From: an uncultured Granulosicoccaceae bacterium | GTDB taxonomy: Bacteria > Pseudomonadota > Gammaproteobacteria > CALCKW01 | Assembly (NCBI GenBank): GCA_937925815.1 | Contig: CALAMQ010000173.1 | Coordinates: 1-35,209, forward strand | Length of the DNA: 35,209 nt | Reading direction: 5' to 3' | Shown here: positions 479 to 18,624 of the stretch, piece after piece | Layout of the letters: each line of letters opens with the position of its first letter | Numbering within the stretch: the stretch's first letter is position 1 | Translations under genes and position numbers: made by a program | Notes under the pieces: generated by a model | Told to the model about the DNA's origin: nothing | What the model saw: the letters and a program-made list of their open reading frames with translations, nothing else | Database searches by the model: none

Positions 479-802
479 ATGACCTTTCTAGTGACTGAGA
501 ACTGCATCCGTTGCAAATATCAGGATTGTGTCTCCGTTTGCCCGGTCGATTGCTTCTTTGAAGGCGACACGATGCTGGTCATTGACCCCGACGAGTGCAT
601 CGACTGTGGTGTGTGTGTCCCAGAGTGCCCAGCGGATGCGATCGTTGCCGGGGATGAAGACGAGGACGGCTACTGGCTCGAGGTCAACACGCGCTTTGCG
701 AAAATTTGGCCAAATATCCTCACGCCCGGCGAGGTGCCTGCCGACGCGGACGAGTGGAACGGCAAATTAGGCAAGCGCGAGGTGTTGAACGGACATGGCT
801 GA
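479..802 (+). CDS. 7Fe-8S ferredoxin (FdxA type)
   Basis: A 107-residue low-potential electron carrier. The cysteine pattern matches Azotobacter ferredoxin I: C9, C17 and C50 are placed to bind a [3Fe-4S] cluster and C21, C40, C43 and C46 a [4Fe-4S] cluster, with C12 and C25 as extra cysteines. The C-terminal tail after residue 60 is also typical of the FdxA family. GGAG lies about nine bases before the ATG. The gene opens the operon and overlaps the ferredoxin reductase gene by 8 bases. Because the 6-hydroxynicotinate reductase of this pathway uses reduced ferredoxin, this protein is most simply its dedicated donor. That partnership is inferred from gene order. Confidence 0.9.
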
Positions 803-1625
803 AGCTGCAAGACACCTCGATTCTGAGCTGCTCATATTGGATGACGGGTTGCCAACGCCCGACAACTGTCTGCGCGCGCGCGTCCTGAGCGTCACCCACT
901 ACACTGATAACTTGTTTGAATTTTCGGTTGAGCGAGATCCGGGTTTTCGCTTCCAAGCCGGTGAATTTGCCATGTTGGGCTTGCCGCTTAGCGACACGCC
1001 GTTTCGTGCGTATTCAGTCGCCAGCGCGCCGTGGGAAGACCATCTGACCTTTTACTCAATCAAAGTGCCCGGTGGGCCGCTGACTGAGAAGTTGCAACAC
1101 CTGCAGGCGGGTGACTCGGTGCTACTCCGCCGCAAAACCACTGGCACTTTGGTCTGTGACGCGTTGTTGCCGGGCGAGCGTTTGATCATGCTGTCAACAG
1201 GCACTGGCGTTGCGCCCTTCGCCTCCGTTGCGCTTGACCCAGCAATCTACGACGCCTTTGGATCACTGGCGCTTGTTCAGGGTGTGCGCGTGTCGGCAGA
1301 GTTGCAATTTGCGCGTGCCTTACAACAGCGTATCGAGTCGGATGAGCTGATCCGCGAATTTGCGGCGGACCGCTTCGAACTGCTCACGTGCACCAGCCGC
1401 GAGGCCGGCGCGCGTGAGGGGCGGGTGACGGACTGGCTTTACTCAGGTGAGCTCGCCGCTGCAATGGGTTCCAGCGGGCTCGATCCCGAGACGGACCGCA
1501 TTATGATTTGTGGTTCAATGGCGATGCTCAATGAGCTCAAGTCATATGTAATTGATGCGGGGTTTGTGGAGGGTTCACGCAATCGCCCCGGTACTTTTGC
1601 GGTAGAGCGCGCTTTCGCCGGTTGA
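795..1625 (+). CDS. fpr: Ferredoxin--NADP+ reductase
   Basis: A 276-residue FAD enzyme of the bacterial (subclass I) ferredoxin-NADP+ reductase family. The FAD-binding motif RAYSVAS is near residue 73, the nucleotide-binding motif GTGVAPF near residue 137, and a MICGSMAM segment lies in the C-terminal part. The protein ends FAVERAFAG, like other Fpr proteins that close on an aromatic-x-x-(E/K)-x-AF pattern. It overlaps the ferredoxin gene by 8 bases, so the two are probably translationally coupled. Inferred role: pass electrons from NADPH to the ferredoxin and on to 6-hydroxynicotinate reductase. It could also serve the Rieske oxygenase encoded at 18697, which has no reductase gene beside it. 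Confidence 0.9.
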
Positions 1626-1657
1626 TGTGTTAGCGCTCTCGTAACAGGAAAGCAGGA

Positions 1658-2503
1658 ATGGGCTACGTGCTGGTCGCAACCGAAAATGAATTGCAAGACC
1701 GTTTGGCAAACGGTGGGTGCCGAGTGGCTGCGGGCATGACAGACATGTACCCATCTGGACAGCTGCCCGGTTCGACTGAGTCTGTGGTCGATATCAGCCA
1801 GGTGTCGTCGCTTCGTGATATCAGCTGCACGGACGGCGCGTGGCGTATTGGCACCACCGTGCGTTGGTCGGATGTGCGGGTATACCCCTGGCCTGCGGGT
1901 CTTGAGATGTTGGCTGAAGTCGCGAGCCAAGTCGGTGCGGTGCAGGTGCAAAATGCAGCGACCGTGGGCGGGAATTTATGCAATGCATCGCCTGCTGCCG
2001 ATGGGATGCCGGTATTGCTTGCGCTCGGTGCCACCGTTGAATTGTGGTCTGTGCGCGGTGTGCGGGAAATGCTGCTGTCTGATTTCATTACGGGTGTTCG
2101 CCGAACCGCGCTCGAGCCCGGTGAGTACCTTCGCGCGATTTGCTTCAAAAACAACGAAGACGCTGTCGCCAGCGCCTTTTGTAAATTGGGTTTGCGGCAG
2201 TACTTGGTGATTTCAATCGCGATGGCCGCAGGCCAACTTCGCTGTGATTCAGCAGGCTGTGTCAGTGGTATTTCACTGGCGCTCGGCGCGTGCTCACCGG
2301 TTGCCACCCGCTTGTCAGACATTGAAGCATCCATCGTCGGGAAGCCAGTGTCCAAATCCTTGATTGACGAAGTCACAGCGGAGCGCGTTGCCTCGGTGAT
2401 TAGCCCCATCGACGATGTGCGCGCGACAGCCGCATACCGCCGTGATGCGGCAGTGCATGTTCTGCGCGATACCCTCGCGCGTTTAGTGGAGGCGGTGGCA
2501 TGA
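1658..2503 (+). CDS. FAD-binding subunit of a molybdenum hydroxylase (probable nicotinate dehydrogenase)
   Basis: A 281-residue medium subunit of the xanthine dehydrogenase/CoxM family. The two flavin-binding motifs are visible: AAGMTD (residues 24-29) and TVGGNLCNASPAADG (102-116). A C-terminal CO-dehydrogenase flavoprotein-like domain follows. AGGA lies just upstream of the ATG. The gene overlaps the next one by 4 bases (ATGA), so it should form a complex with the fused 2Fe-2S/Mo protein. A FAD subunit implies NAD(P)+ as electron acceptor, unlike the cytochrome-linked NicAB enzyme of Pseudomonas. The family is certain. Nicotinate as substrate rests on the neighbours, which act on 6-hydroxynicotinate. 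Confidence 0.85.
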   Translation: MGYVLVATENELQDRLANGGCRVAAGMTDMYPSGQLPGSTESVVDISQVSSLRDISCTDGAWRIGTTVRWSDVRVYPWPAGLEMLAEVASQVGAVQVQNAATVGGNLCNASPAADGMPVLLALGATVELWSVRGVREMLLSDFITGVRRTALEPGEYLRAICFKNNEDAVASAFCKLGLRQYLVISIAMAAGQLRCDSAGCVSGISLALGACSPVATRLSDIEASIVGKPVSKSLIDEVTAERVASVISPIDDVRATAAYRRDAAVHVLRDTLARLVEAVA

Positions 2504-5253
2504 AAGTATCGCTGACATTGAACGGGCAAGAGACCAGCATCGATGACCTCAGCGGCGCCGAGCGGCTGTCCAGCGTGTTGCGTGAATCTTGTGGCGCACG
2601 CGACGTCAAAGTGGGCTGTGAGGCCGGCGACTGCGGGGCTTGTACCGTGCTGGTCGATGGCGAGGCGATGAACGCGTGTATTGTGCCGGTCGCGCAGGTT
2701 GCCAACCGCCACGTCGAGACGGCAGCCGGTTTGCACCGCAACGGCGACCCAGATGCGGTACGCGTCGCGAGCGCCTTTGACGCCGGTGGCGCAGTGCAAT
2801 GCGGAATCTGTTTCCCCGGATTTCTGACCTCCTTGGTCGCGCTAAAGCGCCAGCAATCCCAACCTACCGAAGCTGAAATCACCGATGCGCTTGGCGGCGT
2901 GTTGTGCCGCTGTTCGGGTTACCGCAAGTTGATCGACGCCGCGGTGTCGGCCTGCGATGGGTCCGTACCGCGTACCGAGTGTGATGCTCTCGCCGGCAGT
3001 GTTGGTGATGCGGTGGCGCGTGTTGACGGCTTGCCGCGAATCACTGGTGACCAAATTTTCGGTGATGACATTGCCCCCGCAGACGCGCTTCGGCTCAGAG
3101 TGCTGCGCTCGCCTCACGCGCGTGCACGCTTCACGATCGGCGACACCCAAAGCTGGGTTTCACATCATCCGGGGGTTGAACTTGTTCTCACGGCGTCTGA
3201 CGTGCCGGGGGTCAATCGTTACGGTGTGTTGCCGGGCTTTGAAGACCAGCCCGTCTTCGCTGAATCTGAAGCGCGTTTCCGGGGTGAAGCGGTCGCAGCT
3301 GTGGTTGGGGAAAAAGCCGTAATTGAGGGTTTAGATCTCAACGACTTCCCGGTGACGTGGGAGCCGCTTGATGCCCTTGTGGACATGCCATCGGCGCGCA
3401 AACCGTCTGCTGATGCCTTGCACGCACACGCAGCAGAGAACATTTTATGCCGTGGTCGGGTCGAGAAGGGCGATGTGACATCAGCATTGGCGAGCGCGGA
3501 GTTTATCAAGCGCGGCACCTTTGAGACCGGGTTTGTTGAGCACGCCTACATCGAGCCTGAAGCGGGCTACGCAAGTTTTGACGGTGAGCGGGTGTCGGTT
3601 TTTGGTTGCACGCAGGCCCCTGTTATGGATCAAGAAGCGCTCGCCGGCATTCTCGATCTGCGTCTCGCGCAGCTGCGCATTGTGCCAACAGCCGTTGGCG
3701 GGGGCTTTGGCTCCAAGCTTGACTTGTCTTTCCAGCCCTTTGTGGCGCTCGCGGCGATGCGACTCAAGCGCGCTGTGCGCATGTGTTACTCGCGGCAGGA
3801 GTCGATGCAGTCTTCGACCAAGCGTCATCCATCTCGGATTGAACTGTCTATTGGCGCAACGCGCGATGGCTACCTCACGGCCTGTGATTTCGACGGCGAG
3901 TTCAACACCGGTGCCTACGCCTCTTGGGGGCCCACTGTGGCCAACCGGGTGCCGGTTCACGCATCCGGCCCCTACGCCTACCCACACTATCGCGCGCGCA
4001 CCACTGGTGTTTACACCAACAACCCGCCAGCCGGTGCTTTCCGCGGCTTCGGTGTGCCGCAGGCGGCCATCGCATTAGAGTTGTTGTTGGATGAAATGGC
4101 AGATGAACTCGGGCTAGATCCGCTGGCTTTTCGTCAGAAGAATGCGTTGCAAAACAATGTGCCAACCGCGACCGGTCAATGCTTTTCACAGGGCGTGGGT
4201 ATCTCGGCGTGTTTTGATGCGCTCGCGCCTCACTGGCAGTCGTTGAATGCAGAGGCTGCGGCCTTCAACAACGAGTCTGCTCCGCGCTACCGACGCGGCG
4301 TGGGTCTGGCCGGTGGGTGGTACGGCTGCGGCAACACCTCGATGCCCAACCCGTCGACGATCAAGTCGGCCCTGCGCGCAGACGGTGGCGTTGTGCTGCA
4401 CCAAGGTGCTGTTGACATTGGACAAGGGTCCAACACAGTGATCGCGCAGATTTTTGCGACGGCCGTGGGCTGTTCACTGCACGCGCTTGAGTTGATCAGC
4501 GCGGACACGGACATCACACCGGATGCCGGCAAGACATCGGCGTCGCGCCAGACCTTCATCAGTGGCAATGCCGCGCGCTTGAGCGGGCTCTCTTTACGTC
4601 GCGAGTTGCTCGCGGCGCTCGGAGCGCCCGATGACGCAGATCTCGTGTTTGACCCCAATCTGACCGGTGCGCGGTTGGGCGACGCCTTTTGGCCATTTGA
4701 TGCCAGCGCCTTGCCGCTCGATAACGCGGGCTATGTCATCTGTGTCGAGGAGAGCTACGACCCGCCAACAGCACCGCTCGACGAAAACGGCCAGGGCGAA
4801 CCCTATGCGCAATTTGGTTATGCGGCGCATCTGGTGATGCTGACGGTGGATACGGCACTAGGCACTGTGGAACTCAATAAGATTGTGGCGGCACACGATG
4901 TCGGCAAGGCGATCAACCCGATTTTGGTTGAAGGCCAAGTGCACGGCGGTGTTGCTCAGGGCGTTGGTATGGCCTTGATGGAAGCCTATGTGCCAGGCCA
5001 GAGTGAAGATCTGCACAACTACCTCATACCAACCATTGGCGACGTTCCGCCAATAGAATCACTGATTGTCGAGGTGCCGGACGCGCACGGCGCGCACGGT
5101 GCCAAGGGCCTGGGTGAGCACGTGTTGATTCCAACTGCGCCTGCCATCCTCAATGGAATTCGACGGGCGACCGGTGCGCGTTTGCGTGCCATCCCCGCCA
5201 CCCCTGATGCCATTCTTACCGCATTGCGCGGTGACGAGCTTGTAGAAGAGTGA
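2500..5253 (+). CDS. Fused [2Fe-2S]/molybdopterin subunit of a molybdenum hydroxylase (probable nicotinate dehydrogenase)
   Basis: This 917-residue protein joins two subunits that are often separate. Residues 1-150 carry the plant-type 2Fe-2S set C40, C45, C48, C60 and the second cluster set C101, C104, C136, C138. From about residue 165 the xanthine dehydrogenase large-subunit domains follow, with the Mo-cofactor motifs GGGFGSK and GAFRGFG. A conserved glutamate near residue 873, in GLGEHVL, fits the catalytic base. Predicted reaction: hydroxylation of nicotinate at C6 with water as oxygen source, electrons passing through the Fe-S clusters to the FAD subunit. No signal peptide is seen, so it is cytoplasmic. 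The substrate is inferred from the adjacent 6-hydroxynicotinate reductase. No XdhC-like maturation factor is present in the window. Confidence 0.85.
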   Translation: MKVSLTLNGQETSIDDLSGAERLSSVLRESCGARDVKVGCEAGDCGACTVLVDGEAMNACIVPVAQVANRHVETAAGLHRNGDPDAVRVASAFDAGGAVQCGICFPGFLTSLVALKRQQSQPTEAEITDALGGVLCRCSGYRKLIDAAVSACDGSVPRTECDALAGSVGDAVARVDGLPRITGDQIFGDDIAPADALRLRVLRSPHARARFTIGDTQSWVSHHPGVELVLTASDVPGVNRYGVLPGFEDQPVFAESEARFRGEAVAAVVGEKAVIEGLDLNDFPVTWEPLDALVDMPSARKPSADALHAHAAENILCRGRVEKGDVTSALASAEFIKRGTFETGFVEHAYIEPEAGYASFDGERVSVFGCTQAPVMDQEALAGILDLRLAQLRIVPTAVGGGFGSKLDLSFQPFVALAAMRLKRAVRMCYSRQESMQSSTKRHPSRIELSIGATRDGYLTACDFDGEFNTGAYASWGPTVANRVPVHASGPYAYPHYRARTTGVYTNNPPAGAFRGFGVPQAAIALELLLDEMADELGLDPLAFRQKNALQNNVPTATGQCFSQGVGISACFDALAPHWQSLNAEAAAFNNESAPRYRRGVGLAGGWYGCGNTSMPNPSTIKSALRADGGVVLHQGAVDIGQGSNTVIAQIFATAVGCSLHALELISADTDITPDAGKTSASRQTFISGNAARLSGLSLRRELLAALGAPDDADLVFDPNLTGARLGDAFWPFDASALPLDNAGYVICVEESYDPPTAPLDENGQGEPYAQFGYAAHLVMLTVDTALGTVELNKIVAAHDVGKAINPILVEGQVHGGVAQGVGMALMEAYVPGQSEDLHNYLIPTIGDVPPIESLIVEVPDAHGAHGAKGLGEHVLIPTAPAILNGIRRATGARLRAIPATPDAILTALRGDELVEE

Positions 5254-5257
5254 TGAT

Positions 5258-6733
5258 ATGACTCGAGTGCCAGTCGAGAAGATTCGTTGCGACGCCTGTC
5301 CTGTGACCTGTTTCATTGCGCCGGGAAAGTCGGGCGCTTGTGATCGCTACGCCAATCACGACGGAGATTTGGTTCGATTGGATTCGCCAACCGTCGTCGA
5401 GCGAGTCGTTGCGCGCGGTGGTAAGCTCGTGCCATTTAGCCCCAGTGGTGAGTGGGACGGCGATGTGGTTCACAGCAATCGGCCATTTTTGACAGCGGTT
5501 GGCACGGGCACAACCTACCCAGACTACAAGCCAGCCCCTTTTATCGTGAGCCAGGATCTCGATGGCGTGGACCTCGTGACTGTGGTCACCGAGGGAATTT
5601 TCAGCTATTGCGGCGTCAAGGTGAAAATTGACACTGACCGGCACCTCGGTCACGAGTGCGCGAGCGTGCGCGCTAACGGTGAGGTGGTAGGTCACGTCAC
5701 CACGACTGAGTACGGCTCAAAGATGCTCTCCCTCGGCGGCGTTGAGCACCTGACGGGTGGCAGTAAGAAAGAGGGGCGTATCACCTGTGAGACCTTGTTG
5801 GCACTGACCAATCGGGAAGCCGTCACGCTGACCATTGACGAGGGCCCGGAAGTGATAGTCCAGGCTGGTCAGCCGCCGGTGATCGATGGCGTGACCGAGG
5901 CACGCATGCGCGTCGGCTGTGGTTCCGCGACTATAGGCATGTTTGCCAAACAGTGGTTTTCGCTGGTGGATGAAGTGGTGGTCGTGGATGACCACATCAC
6001 AGGTGTGTTATCTGAACACGAAGCGGGTAAGGGTCTGGACGTGCCGCCAACCGGCATCCGCATGCGCGGGCGCAAGTCGACCCCGGGCCGCTATTTTCAA
6101 GTTGCCAACCCAGGCACTGGCTGGGGTGGTACGGACATCGAAGACCCCTTGAGTATCATCGAACACTTCAAGCCAGCTGTTGCTTGGCCGGGATTGCGGT
6201 TGTTGATGGTGTCCACAACCGGCGAGCAGTGGGCGTACTTTGAACTCGATGATGACTTACAGCCGCAGCCGGCGGAGATCAGCGAGGCATTGCGTTTAAC
6301 CGTGGATCGCATCGAGGAGAACTGCGAGCCCTCGGTGTGTTCGGTGTTGTTCATGGGTGGTGCGGGTGGCTCATTGCGTGCTGGTGTCACCGAGAACCCT
6401 GTGCGCCTCACACGCTCTGTCAAAGACACGCTGACACACGTGAGTTGTGGCGGCGCTGAGGCCTATGTCTGGCCCGGTGGTGGCATCACTGTGATGGTGG
6501 ATGTGTGTGACATGCCATCCGGCTCTTTTGGCTACGTGCCAACCCCGGCACTGGTCGCGCCGATTGAATTTACCATGCGCCGCGATGACTACGCGGCGCT
6601 CGGCGGTCATGTCGACGAAATCGTGCCACTGCAATCCGTGCTCGATCAACCGCACCGCGCGGTAGACGCTGCCACTGCCCATTGGCCGGTGGATCAAAAC
6701 CACTTTGGTTGGCGCGAGCAAAACGGTGACTAG
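5258..6733 (+). CDS. hnr: 6-hydroxynicotinate reductase
   Basis: A 491-residue protein that I recognise as a homologue of 6-hydroxynicotinate reductase. That enzyme uses reduced ferredoxin to convert 6-hydroxynicotinate to 1,4,5,6-tetrahydro-6-oxonicotinate. The N-terminus has a cysteine set C11-x2-C14-x3-C18-x9-C28 suited to an Fe-S cluster, and further cysteines occur in the middle (SYCG, HEC) and near the end (NCEPSVC, SCGGAEAYVWPGGG). The characterised E. barkeri enzyme holds [2Fe-2S] and [4Fe-4S] clusters and a covalently bound flavin. The gene starts 4 bases after the dehydrogenase stop and overlaps the UPF0280 gene. The enamidase and ferredoxin genes in the same operon support the assignment strongly. 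Confidence 0.85.
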   Translation: MTRVPVEKIRCDACPVTCFIAPGKSGACDRYANHDGDLVRLDSPTVVERVVARGGKLVPFSPSGEWDGDVVHSNRPFLTAVGTGTTYPDYKPAPFIVSQDLDGVDLVTVVTEGIFSYCGVKVKIDTDRHLGHECASVRANGEVVGHVTTTEYGSKMLSLGGVEHLTGGSKKEGRITCETLLALTNREAVTLTIDEGPEVIVQAGQPPVIDGVTEARMRVGCGSATIGMFAKQWFSLVDEVVVVDDHITGVLSEHEAGKGLDVPPTGIRMRGRKSTPGRYFQVANPGTGWGGTDIEDPLSIIEHFKPAVAWPGLRLLMVSTTGEQWAYFELDDDLQPQPAEISEALRLTVDRIEENCEPSVCSVLFMGGAGGSLRAGVTENPVRLTRSVKDTLTHVSCGGAEAYVWPGGGITVMVDVCDMPSGSFGYVPTPALVAPIEFTMRRDDYAALGGHVDEIVPLQSVLDQPHRAVDAATAHWPVDQNHFGWREQNGD

Positions 6734-7616
6734 CCTCGCTGCGCGCTTGCCGCGGCGAGACCGCCCGGACAGTTTGCACCTGCAGCACGGTCCAATCGAT
6801 CTCGTGCTCAGCTACCACGGCGATGCCGCTGCGGTTGATCGCGCCTACGCGATGGCCGCAACCTACTTTGACGGCCTGTTGCAAGCGTTGGTGGACGAAC
6901 TCCCAGCCCTGCGCGCACAGACCCGTGCGGGCAATCAGTTTGCAGGTGCGGTGGCGCAACGCATGCAACGGGCGACAGAATCGGCGTCGCGTGGCACCTT
7001 TGTCACCCCGATGGCTGCAGTCGCGGGATCGGTGGCGGACGCCGTGCTCGAGGCGTCGTGGGTGCCTGGCATTACCCGCGCGAGCGTGAACAATGGTGGC
7101 GATATCGCACTGCGTTTGGCGCCACAAGAACGCTACACACTCAGGGTATGCAGCTTGGACAACCAGCCGCTCGCTGACTTTTCTGTGCATGAGCAAGACG
7201 GTATTGGCGGTGTTGCCACCAGTGGTCGCGGAGGCCGTAGCCTGAGTTGCGGTATCGCTGATTCTGTTACCGTGTTGGCGTCTTGCGCGGCCGAGGCGGA
7301 TGTCGCGGCCACATTGATCGCCAACGCGGTGGACATGCCCGGTTGCGACCGTATAGTACGTGAGCCGGCCAATGCGCTGCAGCCAGACTCCGATCTCGGG
7401 GAGCGCTTGGTCGTGACTCACTGCGGCGACTTGGACGAGCACGAAGTCGCCATGGCCCTAGACAATGGCGCGTGTTGCGCGCGTGAATGGGTCGACCGCG
7501 GCGCAGTTAAAGCCGTCGCGCTATTTCTCAGGGGCGCAACCCGCGTCGTTGGTTGTGAACGCAGCGTTGCCCTAGCGGGAAGCGCCAGTCAGGAGAGACA
7601 ATGCATAACGTTGTAG
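6726..7616 (+). CDS. UPF0280 family protein (ApbE superfamily), candidate flavin transferase
   Basis: A 296-residue protein from a GTG at 6726 that overlaps the reductase stop by 8 bases. A TTG at 6705 would add seven residues. It resembles UPF0280/COG2122, a group distantly related to ApbE FAD:protein FMN transferases. Visible segments are FVTPMAAVAGSVAD (about residues 95-108), NNGGDIALRL (about 121-130) and a late SCGIADSVTV, which correspond to conserved blocks of this superfamily. The function of UPF0280 is not established. The reductase encoded just upstream has covalent flavin in its characterised homologue, so a role in attaching it is plausible. This is inference from position and fold family. 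Confidence 0.75.
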   Translation: MTSLAARLPRRDRPDSLHLQHGPIDLVLSYHGDAAAVDRAYAMAATYFDGLLQALVDELPALRAQTRAGNQFAGAVAQRMQRATESASRGTFVTPMAAVAGSVADAVLEASWVPGITRASVNNGGDIALRLAPQERYTLRVCSLDNQPLADFSVHEQDGIGGVATSGRGGRSLSCGIADSVTVLASCAAEADVAATLIANAVDMPGCDRIVREPANALQPDSDLGERLVVTHCGDLDEHEVAMALDNGACCAREWVDRGAVKAVALFLRGATRVVGCERSVALAGSASQERQCITL

Positions 7617-8182
7617 TTCGACGTCAATTTGAATTCGTCGAAGAGATTTTTCATGAGGGTGGACCAAGGCCCGATGCGCCGCTGCGCAAAGCCGCGACGG
7701 TTGCAGTCATTCACAACCCCTTTGCCGGCAGTTACCACGAGGACATCAGTCCGTTCATGGAGGCATTGAAGCCCATTGGGCTTCAACTGGCGCGCGCCAC
7801 AGCTGAGGCTCTTGGCGGTGTCGAACGTGTGCAAGGTTATGGCAAGGGTGCCTTGGTAGGTTGCTCTGGCGAGCTTGAACACGGTGCCCTGTGGCACGTG
7901 CCCGGCGGCTATGCCATGCGTGAGATCCTTGGTGACGCACTTGCCATTGTGCCTTCGACTAAGAAAGTGTGCGCGCCCGGTGGATCGTTGGATATTCCCT
8001 TGACCCACGTCAACGCTTCCTATGTGCGCAGCCACTTCGATGCAATGGAAATTTGCCACAGTGACATGCCGCGTCACGATGAGATAGCCGTCGTCCTCGT
8101 CATGAGCGACGGCGCCCGAATTCACAACCGAGTCGGTGGCCTCGCCGCCGATGAAATCAGCGCAATGGACGGATTGAGATGA
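7601..8182 (+). CDS. DUF1185 / 'amino acid synthesis' family protein, copy 1
   Basis: A 193-residue protein of the AA_synth (DUF1185) family, whose reaction is not known to me. Conserved blocks are HNPFAGSYHED, YGKGALVG followed by GELEH, VPSTKK, SLDIPLTHVNASYVRSHFD and a C-terminal RVGGL...DGLR. It has no signal peptide or membrane segment, so it is probably cytoplasmic. It overlaps the UPF0280 gene by 16 bases, has its own AGGAGAG upstream of the ATG, and overlaps the second copy by 4 bases. The two copies share all these blocks but differ widely elsewhere, which suggests two distinct subunits or two successive reactions. Its operon place suggests a role in nicotinate breakdown, perhaps after enamidase. 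Confidence 0.8.
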   Translation: MHNVVVRRQFEFVEEIFHEGGPRPDAPLRKAATVAVIHNPFAGSYHEDISPFMEALKPIGLQLARATAEALGGVERVQGYGKGALVGCSGELEHGALWHVPGGYAMREILGDALAIVPSTKKVCAPGGSLDIPLTHVNASYVRSHFDAMEICHSDMPRHDEIAVVLVMSDGARIHNRVGGLAADEISAMDGLR

Positions 8183-8763
8183 AAGCGGACATTCGAAAAA
8201 TACTGGTCAATGTCGAGATTACTGAACGCGAAATGGGCCGGGAGATTTCACCGCCAACGCGCAAGGCGGTCGCCGCTGCTGTGATCGAGAACCCCTTTGC
8301 CGGGCGGTATGAGGAAGACCTGACACCGCTGATGGAGATCGGTGCTGAACTCGGCGCGCTGCTCGGTAAGCGCTGCGTGCAGGCACTTGGTATTGCGCCC
8401 GAGCAGGCCGAAAGCTATGGCAAGTCAGCCATGGTTGGCGAAAACGGCGAGCTCGAGCACGCGGCTGCCATTCTTCACCCTAAACTCGGCGCACCGCTGC
8501 GCGCTGAAGTTGAGAAGGGTGCGGCATTGGTGCCGTCGTCTAAAAAAATGGGCGGGCCGGGTCAGGTGCTCGATGTACCACTTGGTCATAAAGACGCAGC
8601 CTATGTTCGCAGTCATTTTGATGGCATTGAAGTGCGGTGCAGCGATGCGCCACGCGCCAACGAAATTTTGGTTGCAGTATCCGTGACCGACAGCGGGCGT
8701 CCCCTGCCACGCGTTGGCGGCCTGGAAGCCGCCGATGCAAAAGGCGAAGACGGCTTGCGCTGA
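8179..8763 (+). CDS. DUF1185 / 'amino acid synthesis' family protein, copy 2
   Basis: A 194-residue paralogue of the preceding protein, coupled to it through an ATGA overlap. It shares NPFAGRYEED, YGKSAMVG, GELEH, VPSSKK, LDVPLGHKDAAYVRSHFD, DAPRANEI and the ending DGLR. Conserved Lys, His, Asp and Glu residues in these blocks could form an active site, but no catalytic assignment is known to me. It is followed after 20 bases by the nicotinamidase gene. The tandem arrangement with strong divergence outside the motifs argues for an old duplication with separate roles or a heteromer rather than a recent copy. Confidence 0.8.
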   Translation: MKADIRKILVNVEITEREMGREISPPTRKAVAAAVIENPFAGRYEEDLTPLMEIGAELGALLGKRCVQALGIAPEQAESYGKSAMVGENGELEHAAAILHPKLGAPLRAEVEKGAALVPSSKKMGGPGQVLDVPLGHKDAAYVRSHFDGIEVRCSDAPRANEILVAVSVTDSGRPLPRVGGLEAADAKGEDGLR

Positions 8764-8783
8764 GGCCCACACGAGGAACAGTC

Positions 8784-9386
8784 ATGAACTCAGATCACGC
8801 ATTACTCATCATCGACGTTCAAAATGATTTCTGTCCAGGCGGCGCCTTGGCCGTGGAGCAGGGAGATCAGATTGTCGACAGCATCAACGCGATGCAATCG
8901 CAGTATTCCTGCGTTATCGCAACGCAAGATTGGCACCCCCAAGGGCACAGCTCCTTCGCCAGCACTCACAATGCTGAGCCGTTCTCAATGAAGCAGATGC
9001 CTTATGGTGAACAAGTGTTGTGGCCCGACCACTGCGTGATCGGAAGTGAAGGTGCTGCTTTTCACGCTCGGCTGCAAACCGAACGCGTCAACGCGGTGAT
9101 CCGAAAAGGCAGTAACCCGGCCATCGACAGTTATTCTGCGTTCTTCGAAAATGACCGCACAACCCCAACCGGTTTGCATGGGCTTCTGTCAGAGCTTGGG
9201 GTCAAGGACATCACGCTGGTGGGGCTTGCGACGGATTTCTGCGTCGCCTATTCGGCACTCGATGCCGCCCGACTCGGCTATGGCGTCACCGTGGATACGG
9301 CGGCGTGCCGCGCGATAGACATGAATGGCGAAACCCTTGCTGCGGCGATCACCGAGATGCGCGCTGCCGGCATCAACGTTCAGTAA
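8784..9386 (+). CDS. pncA: Nicotinamidase (PncA-type, isochorismatase fold)
   Basis: A 200-residue enzyme predicted to hydrolyse nicotinamide to nicotinate and ammonia. The catalytic triad of the family is present: D11 in IIDVQNDF, K108 in IRKGSNP and C153 in GLATDFCV. Metal ligands D49, H51 and H55 lie in DWHPQGH, with H83 in WPDHC. These motifs fit PncA better than maleamate or isochorismate hydrolases. I chose the ATG at 8784 because GAGGA precedes it at 8772-8776 and the catalytic Asp then sits at its usual place. Within this operon it would widen the substrate range from nicotinate to nicotinamide, although it could also serve NAD salvage. Confidence 0.9.
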   Translation: MNSDHALLIIDVQNDFCPGGALAVEQGDQIVDSINAMQSQYSCVIATQDWHPQGHSSFASTHNAEPFSMKQMPYGEQVLWPDHCVIGSEGAAFHARLQTERVNAVIRKGSNPAIDSYSAFFENDRTTPTGLHGLLSELGVKDITLVGLATDFCVAYSALDAARLGYGVTVDTAACRAIDMNGETLAAAITEMRAAGINVQ

Positions 9387-9397
9387 GGAGACTGCAC

Positions 9398-10564
9398 ATG
9401 AGCAAATTGGTTGTCAGGAACATCGACTTGATGCTGACGGGCAAGCTTGAAGCGCCGATCGACGACGCTGACTGCCTGATTGCGGTCAATGGCATCATCG
9501 AAGAGATTGGCAAAGAAGCCAACCTCGACACCAGTGGCGCTGATACAGTTGTCGATGCCAAAGGCACGGCTGTGTGCCCGGGACTGATTGACAGTCACAT
9601 TCACCCGGTGATCGGTGACTACACACCGCGCCAGAATCAATTGAACTGGATTGACTCCACGCTCAACGGCGGTGTCACCACCATGATCTCGGCGGGTGAA
9701 GTGCACATGCCCGGCCGGCCCAAAGACATCGTTGGCCTCAAAGCCATGGCCATCGCGTCTCAGCGCTGGTACGAAAACTTCCGACCCTCTGGCGTCAAAG
9801 TGCACGCCGGTGCGCCTGTAATCGAGCAGGGCATGGAAGAGCACGATTTCAAAGAAATGGCCGATGCAGGCGTCAAGCTGCTCGGCGAGATCGGGCTTGG
9901 CTCGGTCAAGGACGGGCCAACCGCCAAGAAAATGGTGGACTGGGCGCGCAAGTACGGCATGCAGAGCACCATCCACACCGGTGGTCCCTCGATCCCAGGT
10001 TCCGGCCTGATCGACAAAGACATCGTGCTCGAGGCGGGCACTGATGTCATTGGTCACATCAACGGCGGGCACTCGGCGTTGCCGGATGACCAGATCATCT
10101 GCCTGTGCGAGAGCTGTCTTGCGGGTATTGAGATCGTTCACAACGGCAACGAGCGCGCAGGCATTTTGACCGTCAACACCGCGCGTGAACTCGATCAGCT
10201 TGACCGCGTGATTCTCGGAACAGACGGCCCGGCCGGTTCCGGCGTGCAGCCACTTGGCATATTGCGCATGGTGGCGTTGCTCTCGAGTCTCGCCAATGTC
10301 AAAGCTGAGATTGCGTTCTGCTTTGCCACGGGGAATACCGCCCGTGTGCGTGAGCTCGACTGCGGCATCATCGAGCCCGGTCGCGTTGCCGATCTCGTGA
10401 TCATGGACCAAGCACAGCATTCCCCAGGCAAGAACCTGCTCGAGTCGGTCGAGCAGGGCAATCTGCCTGGCATTGGCATGGTAATCATCGACGGAGAAGT
10501 GCGCTGTCACCGCAGTCGCAACACACCGCCTGCTGGCCGTTTGCCGGAAGTGGTTGGAGCCTGA
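9398..10564 (+). CDS. ena: Enamidase (amidohydrolase; 1,4,5,6-tetrahydro-6-oxonicotinate hydrolase)
   Basis: A 388-residue amidohydrolase closely resembling enamidase of Eubacterium barkeri. That enzyme hydrolyses 1,4,5,6-tetrahydro-6-oxonicotinate to 2-formylglutarate and ammonia with a bimetal Fe/Zn centre. Predicted metal ligands are H67 and H69 in DSHIHP, a bridging E164 in GEIGLG, H193 in TIHTGG, H220 in GHINGG and D276 in GTDGP. Segments near YTPRQ, GGVTTMISAG, MPGRPKD and the C-terminal SRNTPPA are family-specific. The start at 9398 follows TAAGGAG. It is the last gene of the operon, and no gene for reduction of 2-formylglutarate follows. After it come 98 bases before the convergent gene at 10663. 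Confidence 0.9.
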   Translation: MSKLVVRNIDLMLTGKLEAPIDDADCLIAVNGIIEEIGKEANLDTSGADTVVDAKGTAVCPGLIDSHIHPVIGDYTPRQNQLNWIDSTLNGGVTTMISAGEVHMPGRPKDIVGLKAMAIASQRWYENFRPSGVKVHAGAPVIEQGMEEHDFKEMADAGVKLLGEIGLGSVKDGPTAKKMVDWARKYGMQSTIHTGGPSIPGSGLIDKDIVLEAGTDVIGHINGGHSALPDDQIICLCESCLAGIEIVHNGNERAGILTVNTARELDQLDRVILGTDGPAGSGVQPLGILRMVALLSSLANVKAEIAFCFATGNTARVRELDCGIIEPGRVADLVIMDQAQHSPGKNLLESVEQGNLPGIGMVIIDGEVRCHRSRNTPPAGRLPEVVGA

Positions 10565-10662: not shown

Positions 10663-11490
10663 TCAGTCGACGGTGATCAGTACCTCTGCGCTCACAGCTT
10701 CACCGTTTACCCAGTACGGCTGGTGCACGTTGGTGTTTAAGTCCAGGCGCAGCCGATGTTGCCCGGCGGGCAATTGACCGATGGACATGTCACTGCCGAA
10801 GTACCGCGCGAGCTTGACGTTGTTTAAGTAGAGATGGCCGTGTCCTGAGCCTGCAACGTGCTCGGTGTCCACGAGCTCGGTATCAAATTGAAAGTGGCTG
10901 ACCGTGGATGACACCTGCCAGGTGCCGGAGTTGTTATCGCGGTCCACTTCAAGCGCGATTTGCGGTGCGGGATCAATTGGCTGTCCAGCCATACCCCCGT
11001 GAGAGCTGTGATCCATTGGGTCAGCTTCTGCGACAGTGACCTGGGTTTTGAGAATGGATCCGTCGCCCAGCGTGAAATGCAGTGGGATCAGGCGGCCAAC
11101 GGTCATCTCGCCTGTGACTGCCATGGCCATGATGTGGGCACCGTCCAGTGCGAAGCTGATACGCCCCCCGCCGGGGACGACAACATCACCGAGCTCGCCT
11201 CCCATGATGTGCGTGTTGCCAGCGTCGGTTGAACTCAATGCAGAGAAGGTCACAGGCTCGCCGCGGTTTTCGATGTTCAGGGTGATCATCAGGCCAGGCA
11301 TTGCGCCGTTTACGGGTAGCGCGATGGCATCGAAGACAACCAAATTGCGAGATTGCCCCGTCGTGCTAAGCCCCCACAACACCGCCGCCAGTGGCACTGA
11401 TAACAGGACGAATACGAGTGCAAAGACCTTCGCAAGGTTGTTTTTTGGCACCTGAGACAAGAGAGCGAGACCCGACAATGTGTAGGGCAT
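10663..11490 (-). CDS. Exported PCuAC-like (copper chaperone) protein with extra C-terminal domain
   Basis: A 275-residue protein from an ATG at 11490. A GTG at 11451 would give 262 residues and leave more room for the divergent promoter. A hydrophobic anchor or signal segment (NNLAKVFALVFVLLSVPLAA) is near the N-terminus. A PCuAC-like domain follows, with an HIMGG segment and GAHIMAMAV, then a linker rich in Met, His and Gly (MDHSSHGGM). The C-terminal domain has a GHGHLYLNNVKLARYFG segment also seen in small periplasmic copper-related proteins. The likely site is the periplasm, membrane-tethered. Copper handling is inferred from the domain and Met/His content. It is divergent from the membrane protein at 11523, with only about 30-70 bases between. 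Confidence 0.6.
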   Translation of the reverse strand: MPYTLSGLALLSQVPKNNLAKVFALVFVLLSVPLAAVLWGLSTTGQSRNLVVFDAIALPVNGAMPGLMITLNIENRGEPVTFSALSSTDAGNTHIMGGELGDVVVPGGGRISFALDGAHIMAMAVTGEMTVGRLIPLHFTLGDGSILKTQVTVAEADPMDHSSHGGMAGQPIDPAPQIALEVDRDNNSGTWQVSSTVSHFQFDTELVDTEHVAGSGHGHLYLNNVKLARYFGSDMSIGQLPAGQHRLRLDLNTNVHQPYWVNGEAVSAEVLITVD

Positions 11491-11522
11491 TGTACCATTC
11501 ACACAGGTTGCTAAATACTGCG

Positions 11523-12926
11523 ATGACAATGCGTGCTTTGTTTGTCTTTTTTGGGCTTTTCACACCATTAGCGGCGCTCGCGCACGCGTCGAGTCAGCAG
11601 CTTGTTCTGTTGTTGCCAACAGCGTTTTATAACAGCGTTGGTGTCATCATTGTCTTGATGACGGCGCTATTCCTGATGGTGCCAGCAGTTGCAAATCGGC
11701 TCACTGCGTTCGCGCATTGGCGATTGGGTCAGGTCGACACGCAGTCGGCTCGGCGGCTTACAAGTTTGCTGTCCTGTGCGGTATTGGTGATGGCATTGGT
11801 CGCGGGTTTGATCGGCTCACGTGACCCACTGACCAACCCATTGACACTGCTGATTTGGTCGGTGTGGTGGATTGTGCTTGTGGTGCTGAACGGTCTGCTT
11901 GGCAACTTGTGGTACTGGTTGAATCCCTGGGTCGGCGCTTGCCATATGATGCGGCGTGCTGTGGGCGAACGCTCTGTTGGCGGGCGCCCGGTGCTGTCGT
12001 TGCCGGACTGGGTTGGGCATTGGCCAGCCGTGATTGGCTTCCTGTGTTTTTCGGCTTTTTTGTTGGCCCACCCTGCACCAGACGATCCCGCTGTGCTCGC
12101 GTTGAGCGTGGCGCTGTATTGGATGATCACCTTGGTGGCGATGTTGCTCTTTGGTGAATCTGCCTGGTTGCAGCGCGGTGAATTTGTCACCGTGATCATG
12201 ACGCAGTTGTCGCGGTCCGCCTTATTCGGTGTGCATAACCACGCGCTTCACGTTGGTGTGCCCGGCTGGCGATTGCGTGAGGCGAGCAACGCGTCATTGA
12301 GTTTGGCTTTGTTCGTGTTGTTGATGCTTGGCACCAGCAGCTTTGATGGCTTTAACGAGACCTTTTTCTGGCTGGGTATTTTGGGTGTCAACCCCTTGGA
12401 ATTCCCCGGTCGTTCCGCGGTAATACCGCACACCCTCGCTGGGATTTTGGTGGTTAATGCGGTGCTTATCTCACTGTTCGCACTGTGTATTGCAGTGGGC
12501 GTTACGCTGGCGAGAGTGAAGCTGCCGGTTTGGTGGGTGGTTGTACGCCTGGCGCCAACGATCTTGCCTATCGCAGTGGGTTATCACTTCGCGCATTATT
12601 TAACGACAATACTCGTCACGATTCAGTACACCGTCGCGTCGTTCAACGACCCGTTTTCTTTGGGTTGGGATCTGTTTGGTGTCGGCCAGTTTTACGTGAC
12701 AACAGGTTTCTTCAACAGGCCAGAATCGGTCGAACAAATTTACCTGTCGCAGGCCACAGCGGTTGTGATTGCGCACCTGATTTCGCTGCTCTGCGCTCAC
12801 CGTGTGGTGGCGTCCTTGGTACCAGACAACAAGCAAGCGATCATCAGCCAATTACCGCTTGCGATATTTATGGTGAACTACACGCTGTTTGGGCTGTGGC
12901 TGCTGTCTGCGCCACGGGGTGCCTGA
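11523..12926 (+). CDS. Polytopic inner-membrane protein of unknown function
   Basis: A 467-residue protein with an N-terminal signal-like segment (MTMRALFVFFGLFTPLAALAH) and about ten further hydrophobic segments. Conserved-looking features are LLLPTAFYNSVG near the start and LWYWLNPW in the middle. It resembles proteins annotated in databases as FedB-like or fenitrothion hydrolase-like, but I would not assign that activity. The longer open frame upstream runs into the divergent gene, so I take the ATG at 11523. The divergent PCuAC-like gene suggests a shared metal- or respiration-related role, which is a guess. It converges on the ABC transporter operon with a hairpin between. Confidence 0.65.
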   Translation: MTMRALFVFFGLFTPLAALAHASSQQLVLLLPTAFYNSVGVIIVLMTALFLMVPAVANRLTAFAHWRLGQVDTQSARRLTSLLSCAVLVMALVAGLIGSRDPLTNPLTLLIWSVWWIVLVVLNGLLGNLWYWLNPWVGACHMMRRAVGERSVGGRPVLSLPDWVGHWPAVIGFLCFSAFLLAHPAPDDPAVLALSVALYWMITLVAMLLFGESAWLQRGEFVTVIMTQLSRSALFGVHNHALHVGVPGWRLREASNASLSLALFVLLMLGTSSFDGFNETFFWLGILGVNPLEFPGRSAVIPHTLAGILVVNAVLISLFALCIAVGVTLARVKLPVWWVVVRLAPTILPIAVGYHFAHYLTTILVTIQYTVASFNDPFSLGWDLFGVGQFYVTTGFFNRPESVEQIYLSQATAVVIAHLISLLCAHRVVASLVPDNKQAIISQLPLAIFMVNYTLFGLWLLSAPRGA

Positions 12927-12972: not shown

Positions 12973-13668
12973 TTAAACGCCGACGTACTTTTCAAGCAAA
13001 CTGCGGTCGGTTTTCAGCGTCGCCGCTGGTACCACTTCGCGGCTGTAGCCGTTTTCAATGAACGCGACTTTGTCCGCAATGGACAGCACCGCGTCGATGC
13101 GCTGCTCAACCAGCAAAACCCCAACCCCGGATTTGGACAGGGTAGAGACAACCTCCTGAATCAAGGCGACGATGGACGGCTGTAGGCCCTCTGTGGGTTC
13201 GTCGAGCAGCAAGAAGCGGGGATTGATGCAAAGCGCGCGGCCAATAGCCGCCATTTGTTGCTCGCCACCGGAGAGGGTGTGTGCCAGCTGGTTCATGCGT
13301 TCTTCGAGCCGCGGGAACAATTCCAGCACCCAGTCGAGCACACGGCTGTCCTCACCGCGTGCCATCAGACCGATTTCCAAGTTCTCCCGCACGGTGAGTT
13401 CGGGGAACAGGCGCCGGCCTTGTGGGGTATAGGCGACACGGTGCTTGGCGACGTGGTCAACCGGCAAGGTGTCGAGTCGGGTGCCGTCTACTGTGATCTG
13501 TCCGGCGCTCAGCGGCAGCAACCCCATGATGGCTTTCATGGTTGATGTCTTGCCGGCACCGTTGCGGCCGAGCACGCAGACGACTTCGCCCTCACAAACG
13601 GAGAGCGAGACGTCGTGCAACACCTTGACGCGTCCGTAGGCGGCGGCGATGCCACTCAGTTCTAGCAT
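12973..13668 (-). CDS. Branched-chain-type ABC transporter ATP-binding protein (LivF-like)
   Basis: A 231-residue ATPase of the LivF group. Walker A is GRNGAGKT (about residues 34-41), the signature is LSGGEQQ (about 130-136) and Walker B is FLLLDEPTEGL. The YTPQGRRLFPELTVRENL segment is typical of LivF. The ATG at 13668 is preceded by GGAGGATGAG. It is the last gene of the minus-strand operon and begins just after the livG stop. With LivG it powers import through the LivH/LivM pair. The shared operator palindrome suggests it imports the nicotinate-pathway substrate rather than branched-chain amino acids. Confidence 0.9.
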   Translation of the reverse strand: MLELSGIAAAYGRVKVLHDVSLSVCEGEVVCVLGRNGAGKTSTMKAIMGLLPLSAGQITVDGTRLDTLPVDHVAKHRVAYTPQGRRLFPELTVRENLEIGLMARGEDSRVLDWVLELFPRLEERMNQLAHTLSGGEQQMAAIGRALCINPRFLLLDEPTEGLQPSIVALIQEVVSTLSKSGVGVLLVEQRIDAVLSIADKVAFIENGYSREVVPAATLKTDRSLLEKYVGV

Positions 13669-13669
13669 C

Positions 13670-14377
13670 TCATCCTCCCAAATAGGCTGATTGAACGGCC
13701 GCGTTGCTTTGAATCGATTCAGGGTCGCCGCTCGCGAGCACGCGCCCAAACTGCAATACCGTGATGGTGTCGGCGACTGCCATGACCACGTCCATGTTGT
13801 GCTCAATCAACAGCAGCGTGGTCTCGCTGCGCAGGCTTTTGAGTAGATCGACAAACCATTGGACTTCGGCGTCCCCAAGTCCCTGTGTCGGCTCATCGAG
13901 AATCAGCAAGCTCGGTTTTTGCACGATGCCCAGTGCAATTTCCAACAGCCGTTGATGGCCGTAGGCGAGGTCACCTGCCAACTGCTGGCGGCGGTCGCTC
14001 AAGCCGACGGTTTCGAGCGCGTGATCGACTGCCTGCGCCATTGCATCACGCGCCTTGTGGCGAGCCATGGCGGCCAACTCAACGTTGGCCTCGATCGTCA
14101 TGTTGGGAAAAACAGACGTGATTTGAAAGGTGTAGGCAATGCCCATTTGCACGCGCCGGTACGCGGGAGCTTTGCTGATATCTTGGCCCTGCAGCACGAT
14201 GCGGCCGGCGTCGGGGAGAATGCGTCCACTGAGCAAATTGACCAGCGTGGATTTGCCGGCCCCGTTGGGTCCAATCAACGCGTGCACCGTGCCCGGTTCA
14301 ACCGCGAGATCAACAGTGTCGGTGGCGCGCAGGCCGCCGAAAGATTTGATGAGTCCGTGAGCTTCCAGCAAAGGCAT
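13670..14377 (-). CDS. Branched-chain-type ABC transporter ATP-binding protein (LivG-like)
   Basis: A 235-residue ATPase. Walker A is GPNGAGKST (residues 36-44), a LAYGHQR signature variant replaces LSGGQ as usual in LivG, and Walker B is LLILDEPTQGL followed by the His switch in LIEHNMD. The ATG at 14377 begins 5 bases after the livM stop. A longer open frame upstream runs through livM and is not used. The protein is shorter than E. coli LivG but normal for short-LivG families of this transporter class. Confidence 0.9.
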   Translation of the reverse strand: MPLLEAHGLIKSFGGLRATDTVDLAVEPGTVHALIGPNGAGKSTLVNLLSGRILPDAGRIVLQGQDISKAPAYRRVQMGIAYTFQITSVFPNMTIEANVELAAMARHKARDAMAQAVDHALETVGLSDRRQQLAGDLAYGHQRLLEIALGIVQKPSLLILDEPTQGLGDAEVQWFVDLLKSLRSETTLLLIEHNMDVVMAVADTITVLQFGRVLASGDPESIQSNAAVQSAYLGG

Positions 14378-14382
14378 GATGA

Positions 14383-15324
14383 TCACTGAATCCAGGGTGC
14401 GAGGCGGCGACGGATTGTTCCGACGATCCCCTCTGGGACATAGAGTGTGAGCAGCACCAATACGATGCCTGCCACGAGCATGTAGGCGGTTGTAAATTCG
14501 CTGCTGATATCGATCAGGTAGAACATCAACGCGGTGCCAATCAACGGACCGATCAATGTGCCAGTGCCACCGAGCAGCACCCACAACAGCGGGAAAATCG
14601 AATACTGGACCGATGCGAAGGTAGCGCCGACATAGCCAAATAGCAGGCTGTAAGCACCGCCAGCGAGCGCTGCCATCGCACCGGAAATGGCCAGTGCGCT
14701 GAGCTTTGCACGAAACACATTGAAGCCGAGCATTTGAGTTCGCTCTTCGTTCTCGCGAATCGCTACCAGTACTTTGCCAAGTCGGCTTCGAACGACAACC
14801 TGACAGCCCAAAACGCACAAGCTGATCAGCACCCACGAGACGATCAGCCGGGTGTCATCTGATGAGAGATCAATGCCCAAGAAAGTGCGTTTGTCTTGTG
14901 AGATTACGAAGCCTTCGTCGCCGCGCGTGAATTCACCAAACAGCAGCACCGTCAGAAAGAAGGCTTGCGAGAACATCAGTGTCACGATCATGAACGAGAC
15001 ACCGGTTGTGCGAAGCGCGAGCAGACCAACAGCCACCGCCAACACCAGGCCGCAAACAATGCCGAACAGAAAACCGATCTCTGAAGGAAATTCGAGCAGT
15101 TGCACTGTGAGGCCGACACCGTACAAACCGGCGGAAAAGAACATCGCGTGCCCGAGGCTGAGCAGGCCGGTGTAGCCAAAGCTGATGTTGTATGCGCAGG
15201 CAAAACAAGCCAGAACCATGATGCGCGCGAAGTTGCCCTGATGGTATTCAGGCAGCGCCAGCACGACCAATAACAAGGCCAGCAACAGCCCAATGTTGAA
15301 CAGTACGGAACGGTCCATGCTCAT
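14383..15324 (-). CDS. Branched-chain-type ABC transporter permease (LivM-like)
   Basis: A 313-residue inner-membrane permease with about eight to ten hydrophobic segments. The cytoplasmic coupling region RENEERTQMLGFNVFRAK (around residue 190) and the motif SFGYTGLLSLGHAMFF near residue 50 are typical of LivM. Its ATG overlaps the livH stop by 4 bases. It forms the translocation pore with LivH, working with the binding protein encoded at the head of the operon. Confidence 0.9.
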   Translation of the reverse strand: MSMDRSVLFNIGLLLALLLVVLALPEYHQGNFARIMVLACFACAYNISFGYTGLLSLGHAMFFSAGLYGVGLTVQLLEFPSEIGFLFGIVCGLVLAVAVGLLALRTTGVSFMIVTLMFSQAFFLTVLLFGEFTRGDEGFVISQDKRTFLGIDLSSDDTRLIVSWVLISLCVLGCQVVVRSRLGKVLVAIRENEERTQMLGFNVFRAKLSALAISGAMAALAGGAYSLLFGYVGATFASVQYSIFPLLWVLLGGTGTLIGPLIGTALMFYLIDISSEFTTAYMLVAGIVLVLLTLYVPEGIVGTIRRRLAPWIQ

Positions 15325-16250
15325 CTGCTGCTCCGCGTGAACAAGCCGGCAGGTCGCCAGATCAATACCAGCGCGACGAGCAAGGTTGCGAGAATTTTTG
15401 CAAGTGTGGGCGAAAAAAACACCGCGATCATGCCATTGCTCAACCCGATGATTGCGGCGGCCACCAAGGTGCCAGACAGGCTGCCTAAGCCGCCGAGAAT
15501 AACGACAATAAAGGACAGCAATAGTGGGTCGCCGCCCATCAGGTAATGGGCTTGCTGAATGGGCACAATCAACACAGCGCCCATCGCTGCCAGCGCACCG
15601 CCGGCTGCGAAAACCAGGCCGTACACCCGCTCAATGCGGATACCAAAAGCCTGGGCAATGTCTTTGTCTTGTTGCGTTGCACGCATGATCAGGCCATAGC
15701 GGGTTTTGGATAAAACCAACCAAACACCAATCAGCAGAACAATCGAGATGGCAATCACGGCGAGCTTGTAAGACGTGATGCTCAGGCCCCAGGGCCAGTA
15801 CACAGCCCAGCCCTGCTCAGTGATCTCAAGCCACGGAATGGCTAGGCGCGTATTGAACGGTGGTTCTACAGGGCGTGCGTCCGGCCCGAAAGTCATCAGC
15901 GATATCTGCTGGAAAATGTAGAGCAGGCCGACTGTCGCGACGATAGTGCGCTCTGGATCGTAGTCAACGCGGTTGATCACAATCCGATCAGAGGCGTAGG
16001 CAATTGCACCGACAAGCAACGGGCTTAAAACGAGTGCCACAGCAAAGCCAACGGCTGGCGAGAATGCGGTGAGTTGGTCTGTGATCCACCACGCCAGCAC
16101 GGCGCCAAGCATGAAAAATTCCCCGTGCGCGACGTTCACCACGCGCATGATGCCAAACACCAGCGCTAAACCGATGGCCGTCAAGGCCAGCACGGCGGTG
16201 GACACAGCGCTCTCTAAAAGCGCCAATAAAATGTGGGGTCCGAGTTCCAT
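15321..16250 (-). CDS. Branched-chain-type ABC transporter permease (LivH-like)
   Basis: A LivH-family permease of 309 residues from the ATG at 16250. GGAG lies eight bases upstream (16259-16262 on the plus coordinate), which favours this start over an ATG at 16286 that would add 12 residues. The segment VFGIMRVVNVAHGEFFMLGA near the N-terminus and ILGGLGSLSGTLVAA near the C-terminus are hallmarks of LivH. The coupling motif RATQQDKDIAQAFGI lies in the middle. It is separated from the binding protein gene by a strong hairpin at 16344-16369. Confidence 0.9.
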   Translation of the reverse strand: MELGPHILLALLESAVSTAVLALTAIGLALVFGIMRVVNVAHGEFFMLGAVLAWWITDQLTAFSPAVGFAVALVLSPLLVGAIAYASDRIVINRVDYDPERTIVATVGLLYIFQQISLMTFGPDARPVEPPFNTRLAIPWLEITEQGWAVYWPWGLSITSYKLAVIAISIVLLIGVWLVLSKTRYGLIMRATQQDKDIAQAFGIRIERVYGLVFAAGGALAAMGAVLIVPIQQAHYLMGGDPLLLSFIVVILGGLGSLSGTLVAAAIIGLSNGMIAVFFSPTLAKILATLLVALVLIWRPAGLFTRSSR

Positions 16251-16343
16251 CGACGCAGCTCCGACAGCAAGCGTGGGCAACAGCATCGCAGTTGTGCAGG
16301 GTAACTAGTGCACAACTTGCGAATGCGTAGGGGACATTAAAAT

Positions 16344-16369
16344 GCCGGGCAATCCAAGGATTGCCCGGC
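16344..16369 (-). terminator. Hairpin between binding-protein gene and livH (attenuator or mRNA-stabilising stem)
   Basis: GCCGGGCAATCC (16344-16355) and GGATTGCCCGGC (16358-16369) form a nearly perfect stem just after the stop of the binding-protein gene. In the minus direction it is followed by ATTTTAATG. In transporter operons such stems often let the first gene be expressed above the permease genes, through partial termination or 3'-end protection. Confidence 0.65.
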
Positions 16370-16380
16370 TCAGCACTGAC

Positions 16381-17679: not shown

Positions 17680-17718
17680 GGACCGGGCTCCTAGACAGTG
17701 TGTGTGCTGATTCATATT

Positions 17719-18399: not shown

Positions 18400-18624
18400 C
18401 AATCGTCCTTGGAGTCCGGTGGCCAGCGTTTGGCACAGATCGGATGGGGTTAGTGGAGGCGTGGAGAATGTACCGCCAAAACAGGTGTTTTATTCAGTGT
18501 AGTGTGTAAGCGGGCTCTCTCAGTATTCTGGCACTGCCAATCTGCCGGTGTCCACGGCCGGGCGTCGGATTGGATTGTGACTACTTTGAATTGGCCTCTA
18601 GGGGTTGAAACAAAAAGATCACTC

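Follow-up and report, generated by a model that had tools for sequence, protein, structure and literature searches.

A probable reductive nicotinate catabolic cluster in a gammaproteobacterial genome and a possible flavin transferase among its constant partner genes

The stretch of DNA analysed here (the window) is the whole 35,209-nucleotide contig CALAMQ010000173.1 (G000:C173) of an uncultured Granulosicoccaceae bacterium, whose genome of 3.56 Mb is 99% complete, and it very probably carries, as judged from its gene content, the cluster with which aerobic proteobacteria break down nicotinate by the reductive route. The cluster itself is known, and the new part lies in the roles proposed for its constant partner genes, especially UPF0280. 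The families of the window proteins were assigned by Pfam, NCBIfam (with its own cut-offs) and PDB sequence matches. On the forward strand, ten genes between positions 479 and 10564 overlap or abut, with intergenic gaps of -29 to +32 bases. All ten packed genes of the initial annotation are present under correct names, with its enzymes named rightly and only UPF0280 and the PF06684 pair left unnamed, and the assignment of the host to a probable gammaproteobacterium agrees with a CRP equivalog above cut-off and with DarP, family matches that do not themselves name the class. The span from 479 to 10564 is real, but the true cluster runs on to about 24451, beyond which housekeeping genes (rplM, rpsI, ferrochelatase and others) were observed. 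The scans for promoters and terminators gave nothing clear above shuffles. The ten genes, all on the + strand, are as follows.

479..802, +, FdxA-type 7Fe ferredoxin, proposed electron donor of 6-hydroxynicotinate reductase (Hnr) (NF045490 above cut-off; Azotobacter ferredoxin I structures, 1e-34)
795..1625, +, ferredoxin-NADP reductase (FNR), Fpr type (bacterial FPRs in PDB, 1e-67; Azotobacter FPR 1a8p, 3e-62)
1658..2503, +, putative nicotinate hydroxylase FAD subunit, NdhF-like (PF00941, PF03450; best PDB match 3hrd_C, E. barkeri nicotinate dehydrogenase, 3e-26)
2500..5253, +, putative nicotinate hydroxylase fused 2Fe-2S and molybdopterin subunit, NdhS+L+M in one chain (Fer2, Fer2_2, MoCoBD_1/2; 3hrd_A 2e-73, 3hrd_B 1e-54, 3hrd_D 1e-26)
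5258..6733, +, Hnr (60-75% identity to annotated Hnr)
6705..7616, +, UPF0280/COG2122, ApbE-like fold, proposed Hnr flavin transferase (NF003322, 327 bits)
7601..8182, +, PF06684 protein 1 (DUF1185, 'AA_synth'; Pfam)
8179..8763, +, PF06684 protein 2 (Pfam; solved homologue 2qtp, SPO0826, 4e-101)
about 8784-9386, +, nicotinamidase PncA (NF008623, 234 bits, above cut-off)
about 9398-10564, +, enamidase, predicted to convert 1,4,5,6-tetrahydro-6-oxonicotinate (THON) to 2-formylglutarate and ammonia (2vun, 1e-106 over 384/386 residues)

The gene content is observed directly, and on homology each enzymatic step would follow from it: PncA would deamidate nicotinamide to nicotinate, the Mo-Fe/S-FAD hydroxylase would convert nicotinate to 6-hydroxynicotinate, Hnr would reduce the latter to THON with electrons passing from NADPH through FNR to the 7Fe ferredoxin, the enamidase would open the ring to give 2-formylglutarate and ammonia, and the carbon would leave by way of glutarate, glutaryl-CoA and acetyl-CoA. 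Much less certainly, UPF0280 would attach a covalent flavin to Hnr and the PF06684 pair would take part in the Hnr step or in what directly follows it, 2-formylglutarate being a conceivable substrate. The family and structure matches uphold the first annotation of a reductive nicotinamide/nicotinate pathway that brings its own ferredoxin and ferredoxin reductase. When the comparison with the E. barkeri enzymes that the initial annotation had called for was carried out, the enamidase matched 2vun and the hydroxylase subunits matched the 3hrd chains. The molybdenum hydroxylase of the window is accordingly read as a predicted nicotinate hydroxylase, with every subunit of E. barkeri nicotinate dehydrogenase matched, and the binuclear metal site of the enamidase (HxH, Glu, His, His and Asp) is kept entirely in the alignment to E. 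barkeri enamidase 2vun. The general family scans of the window proteins revealed no NicC, NicX, NicD or NicF, for which the genome was not searched.

Over its full length, the window Hnr shares 60-75% identity with proteins annotated as Hnr, found in 26 plasmid records and at 80 GTDB loci. The GTDB scan gave at least 593 loci with confirmed relatives, of which 80, mostly from Rhodobacterales and Hyphomicrobiales, were kept, and 67 loci with long flanks were used for gene counts. The plasmids include those of Sulfitobacter and Sagittula. The invariant core of these clusters is Hnr-UPF0280-PF06684-PF06684, with UPF0280 in 66 of the 67 loci (in the exception, L053 of Granulosicoccus, the gene lies just outside the flank) and PF06684 copies in 65, so the most constant neighbours of Hnr are the very genes that had first been left unnamed.

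Around this core, the hydroxylase and the ring opener are exchanged. The hydroxylase is of the FAD type in 38 of the 67 loci and of the NicAB type in 26, never together, and the ring opener is the enamidase in 48 loci and HyuAB in eight, likewise never together (p=1e-5; the loci are mutually related, and p-values thus overstate the number of independent events). Whole-genome searches found no enamidase in any of four HyuAB genomes (best matches about 25 bits), but an enamidase above 600 bits in nine of ten other Hnr genomes, often beyond the fetched Hnr flanks (p=0.005 for the contrast). The best curated family of HyuA is caprolactamase, with a score below the family cut-off. Caprolactamase is an ATP-using lactam hydrolase, and since THON is a six-membered lactam, a replacement of the enamidase by HyuAB is plausible; HyuAB is probably an ATP-driven substitute. 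The comparison of loci suggests that an ATP-dependent lactamase replaces the enamidase in some Hyphomicrobiales and Rhodobacterales. The caprolactamase-like pair is located at 15632-19425 of L009 and also occurs in L006, L010, L011, L054, L059, L061 and L063.

The distribution and predicted structure of UPF0280 suggest, with much less certainty than attaches to the pathway, that it installs the covalent flavin of Hnr. The suggestion draws on its co-occurrence with Hnr, its ApbE-type fold and motifs, the Hnr genomes that lack ApbE, and the covalent flavin that the E. barkeri Hnr reportedly carries (Alhapel et al. 2006). Among 369 genomes of the window's class, Hnr was detected in four (G000, G051, G295 and G354), a fifth match, in G292 (E=9e-4, 66 residues), being judged spurious, and UPF0280 in three, all of them Hnr carriers (p=5e-7). 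G295, the Hnr genome with no detected UPF0280, has a completeness of 79%, and the contig that carries its hnr breaks off within the gene. In G051 the two genes are on separate contigs, with UPF0280-PF06684-PF06684 adjoining the hydroxylase, and G190, of the same genus, contains neither gene. ApbE is absent from 29 of 55 Hnr genomes, some being draft or metagenome assemblies. The AlphaFold model of UPF0280, built like the other structure models from alignments of window and locus sequences only, has a pLDDT of 91, and its Foldseek matches are the DUF375 protein 2o34 followed by significant PDB matches that are all ApbE-family flavin transferases (4e-5 to 1e-2). UPF0280 shares with ApbE (PF02424) not only the fold but also conserved GGD, ATSG and ADxxxT motifs, and among the metal-site residues after ATSG, D199 is invariant and T203 is conserved to at least 90% in the 30-sequence alignment. 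It differs from ApbE in lying outside the Pfam model, with no match to PF02424 (0 Pfam families), and in having a partner Hnr without the usual target motif.

Several points weigh against this interpretation and that of the cluster as a whole. A local ferredoxin gene is uncommon (5 of the 67 loci). The hhalign comparison of UPF0280 with ApbE was weak, at 15% probability, and the usual ApbE target motif [ST]GA[ST] occurs in none of the 32 Hnr sequences. Furthermore, the methanogen UPF0280 protein MA1715 has been described as acting in sulfur trafficking, and a flavin-binding region has been said to be missing. Because [ST]GA[ST] is absent, UPF0280 would need another target site on Hnr, and Thr378, invariant in the 32 sequences within GSLRxG[VF]TxNP, is a candidate flavin attachment site. 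Hnr itself matched no Pfam family and no solved relative was found among the PDB matches; its predicted model is weak (pLDDT 70) with no significant Foldseek match, and no fold is claimed for it.

A different function, in which UPF0280 attaches no flavin but handles persulfide sulfur as proposed for MA1715, in this case to build the Fe-S clusters in Hnr or to supply the hydroxylase with its sulfido ligand, is rather unlikely. It has behind it the genetic work on MA1715 and DvMF_0044, together with the need of both Hnr and the hydroxylase for sulfur-containing cofactors, but besides DUF375 the fold matches are all ApbE flavin transferases, UPF0280 stays with Hnr when the hydroxylase type is exchanged, and no cysteine is invariant across the 30 aligned UPF0280 sequences. 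That UPF0280 represents a second flavin transferase family, dedicated to Hnr, distinct from ApbE and modifying a non-canonical site, is put forward tentatively as a genuine possibility. If true, the proteobacterial branch of UPF0280 would gain a function, and it would be clear how Hnr can be a covalent flavoprotein in bacteria that lack ApbE.

The two PF06684 paralogues exhibit 40 positions conserved to at least 97% across both, several of them His, Lys, Arg, Asp or Glu, a pattern as in an enzyme. The solved members of the family have a chorismate-mutase-like fold and no known function, and a relative, TgnF of the Acinetobacter trigonelline pathway, is said to stimulate semialdehyde oxidation. 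Because the pair remains constant while the hydroxylase and the ring opener are exchanged, its place should be the Hnr step or what comes directly after it; that it acts on 2-formylglutarate toward glutarate semialdehyde is a guess of low confidence. Further single PF06684 genes, about 33-40% identical, were observed outside the cluster in G190:C30, G295:C69 and G051:C74.

The region downstream of the ten genes, up to about 24451, contains the following features.

10663..11529, -, PCuAC-like secreted/membrane protein (weak PF04314)
11505..12926, +, polytopic membrane protein (homologues in 15 other Hnr-type loci)
12973..17715, -, Liv-type ABC transporter 1, with two ATPases, two permeases and binding protein LivK1 (family matches)
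17983..18402, -, MarR-family regulator (family match; homologues near Hnr in 60/67 loci)
18697..19764, +, Rieske oxygenase, VanA_C type (PF19112, PF00355)
19847..24451, +, Liv-type ABC transporter 2, with fused permease (family matches; same arrangement in Sulfitobacter L007)

The MarR-Rieske-transporter block is assigned to the system because a plasmid of S. pontiacus carries it directly beside FNR-hydroxylase-Hnr-UPF0280-PF06684-PF06684. LivK1 was found in 13 of the 67 loci and LivK2 in 38, never together, whereas the window has both; compared with the 67 other loci, it is unusual in combining the ferredoxin, the nicotinamidase and both transporters. An in-cluster nicotinamidase is rare, occurring in none of the 67 and in one shorter locus, L014. 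The membrane protein at 11505-12926, which has no Pfam or NCBIfam match, recurs (L009, L102, L107 and others) where a LivK1-type transporter is present, and the PCuAC-like protein next to it in the window is kept in only two other loci, L107 (7209-7991) and L028.

The Rieske gene, present in 13 of the 67 loci as well as in the window and always with a FAD-type hydroxylase and a LivK2-type transporter, raises the question of whether the cell in fact takes a different pyridine as its substrate, perhaps a methylated compound like trigonelline, which the Rieske enzyme would first demethylate or hydroxylate, with nicotinate as an intermediate. Demethylases do belong to the VanA_C family, and TgnF places a PF06684 protein in a trigonelline pathway, but the Rieske gene is absent from 54 of the 67 loci, no curated family names the enzyme, and the in-cluster nicotinamidase of the window points to nicotinamide, and another substrate is considered unlikely.

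With regard to electron supply, FNR is encoded at 36 of the 67 loci, and the simplest reading is that it feeds Hnr. The initial annotation had proposed that hydroxylation and ring reduction balance each other, the hydroxylase yielding the NAD(P)H that the ferredoxin pair spends. As a rule this is not supported, with FNR at 20 of 26 NicAB-type loci versus 15 of 38 FAD-type loci. NicAB-type enzymes hand their electrons to cytochromes, and since FNR is frequent at their loci, it does not depend on NAD(P)H made by the hydroxylase; a respiring cell needs no strict electron balance between the two steps. VanA-type oxygenases require a reductase and none adjoins the Rieske gene of the window, so the ferredoxin and FNR might serve that oxygenase rather than Hnr, but their genes head the hnr operon in the window and a Rieske gene is missing from the surrounding 10 kb at 30 of the 36 loci with FNR, and such a role is distinctly unlikely. 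In G051 (contig 55, L101 10189-13865), Hnr adjoins a MarR gene and an aldehyde ferredoxin oxidoreductase, apart from the remaining cluster, and that enzyme could be a source of reduced ferredoxin for Hnr.

The statement that the route needs no oxygen stands for the ring steps, which use none, but not as a description of lifestyle, as the known hosts are aerobes, the host genome encodes the heme-copper oxidase COX1, and the cluster includes a Rieske oxygenase. A lower pathway of the E. barkeri type also fits less well than a glutarate route as in Azorhizobium: contig 74 of the host genome carries GcdH followed by an adjacent CoA-transferase III, and at the Hnr-UPF0280-FNR locus of Kaistia dalseonensis, GcdH occurs with a protein that best fits the succinate-glutarate CoA-transferase family. 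The host GcdH is 71% identical to the Kaistia homologue, for which glutaryl-CoA dehydrogenases are the top matches in the PDB. The system belongs to aerobes and most likely ends in glutarate rather than in the fermentation of E. barkeri. That the host ferments nicotinate through 2-hydroxymethylglutarate and methyleneglutarate mutase is highly improbable given the GcdH/CoA-transferase pair and COX1, for although the first three enzymes are common to both organisms, the window contains none of the later E. barkeri genes (the genome was not searched for the mutase).

Soil and plankton commonly contain nicotinate and related compounds, and hundreds of bacteria, mostly aerobes, have the route. Even so, Hnr at its centre lacks both a Pfam family and a solved relative, and no role is assigned to three of the constant partner genes. 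The compact, self-contained set in the window (donor chain, hydroxylase, reductase, putative maturase and ring opener) lends itself to joint expression and assay.

The cluster is not new: its proteobacterial form has been in the literature since 2012 (PMC3511419), and no fewer than 593 GTDB loci encode relatives of Hnr. That study described the Hnr cluster as conserved in Azorhizobium caulinodans, Bradyrhizobium and Rhodopseudomonas and ending in glutarate, with 42% identity to E. barkeri Hnr for a proteobacterial relative, and PMC9304392 summarises the same route via THON and enamidase. Like the window, the clusters of A. caulinodans (AZC_2804-2790), Bradyrhizobium (blr3818-3830) and R. palustris HaA2 (PMC3511419, Fig. 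4) contain genes for the first three steps, for a putative ABC transporter of nicotinate and for the glutarate end, besides two conserved genes of unknown function. The Bradyrhizobium loci have a NicAB-type hydroxylase, whereas that of the window is of the FAD type with a fused Mo subunit, and the window adds the ferredoxin, the nicotinamidase, the Rieske oxygenase and both transporter types. The S. pontiacus plasmid pDSM110277_c (L007) shares with the window FNR, the FAD and Mo subunits, Hnr, UPF0280, the PF06684 pair, MarR, the Rieske gene, the fused-permease transporter and the enamidase, but it has no local ferredoxin or nicotinamidase and a single transporter, and its enamidase gene is on the opposite strand. 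The anaerobe E. barkeri has a hydroxylase of four subunits and a lower pathway that runs through a B12 mutase. The hydroxylase and enamidase of its cluster (NdhFSLM, Hnr, Ena) are homologous to those of the window by matches and Hnr by annotation, whereas the window encodes a single chain in which the Mo part is joined to the 2Fe-2S domain, and the host genome carries the glutarate route.

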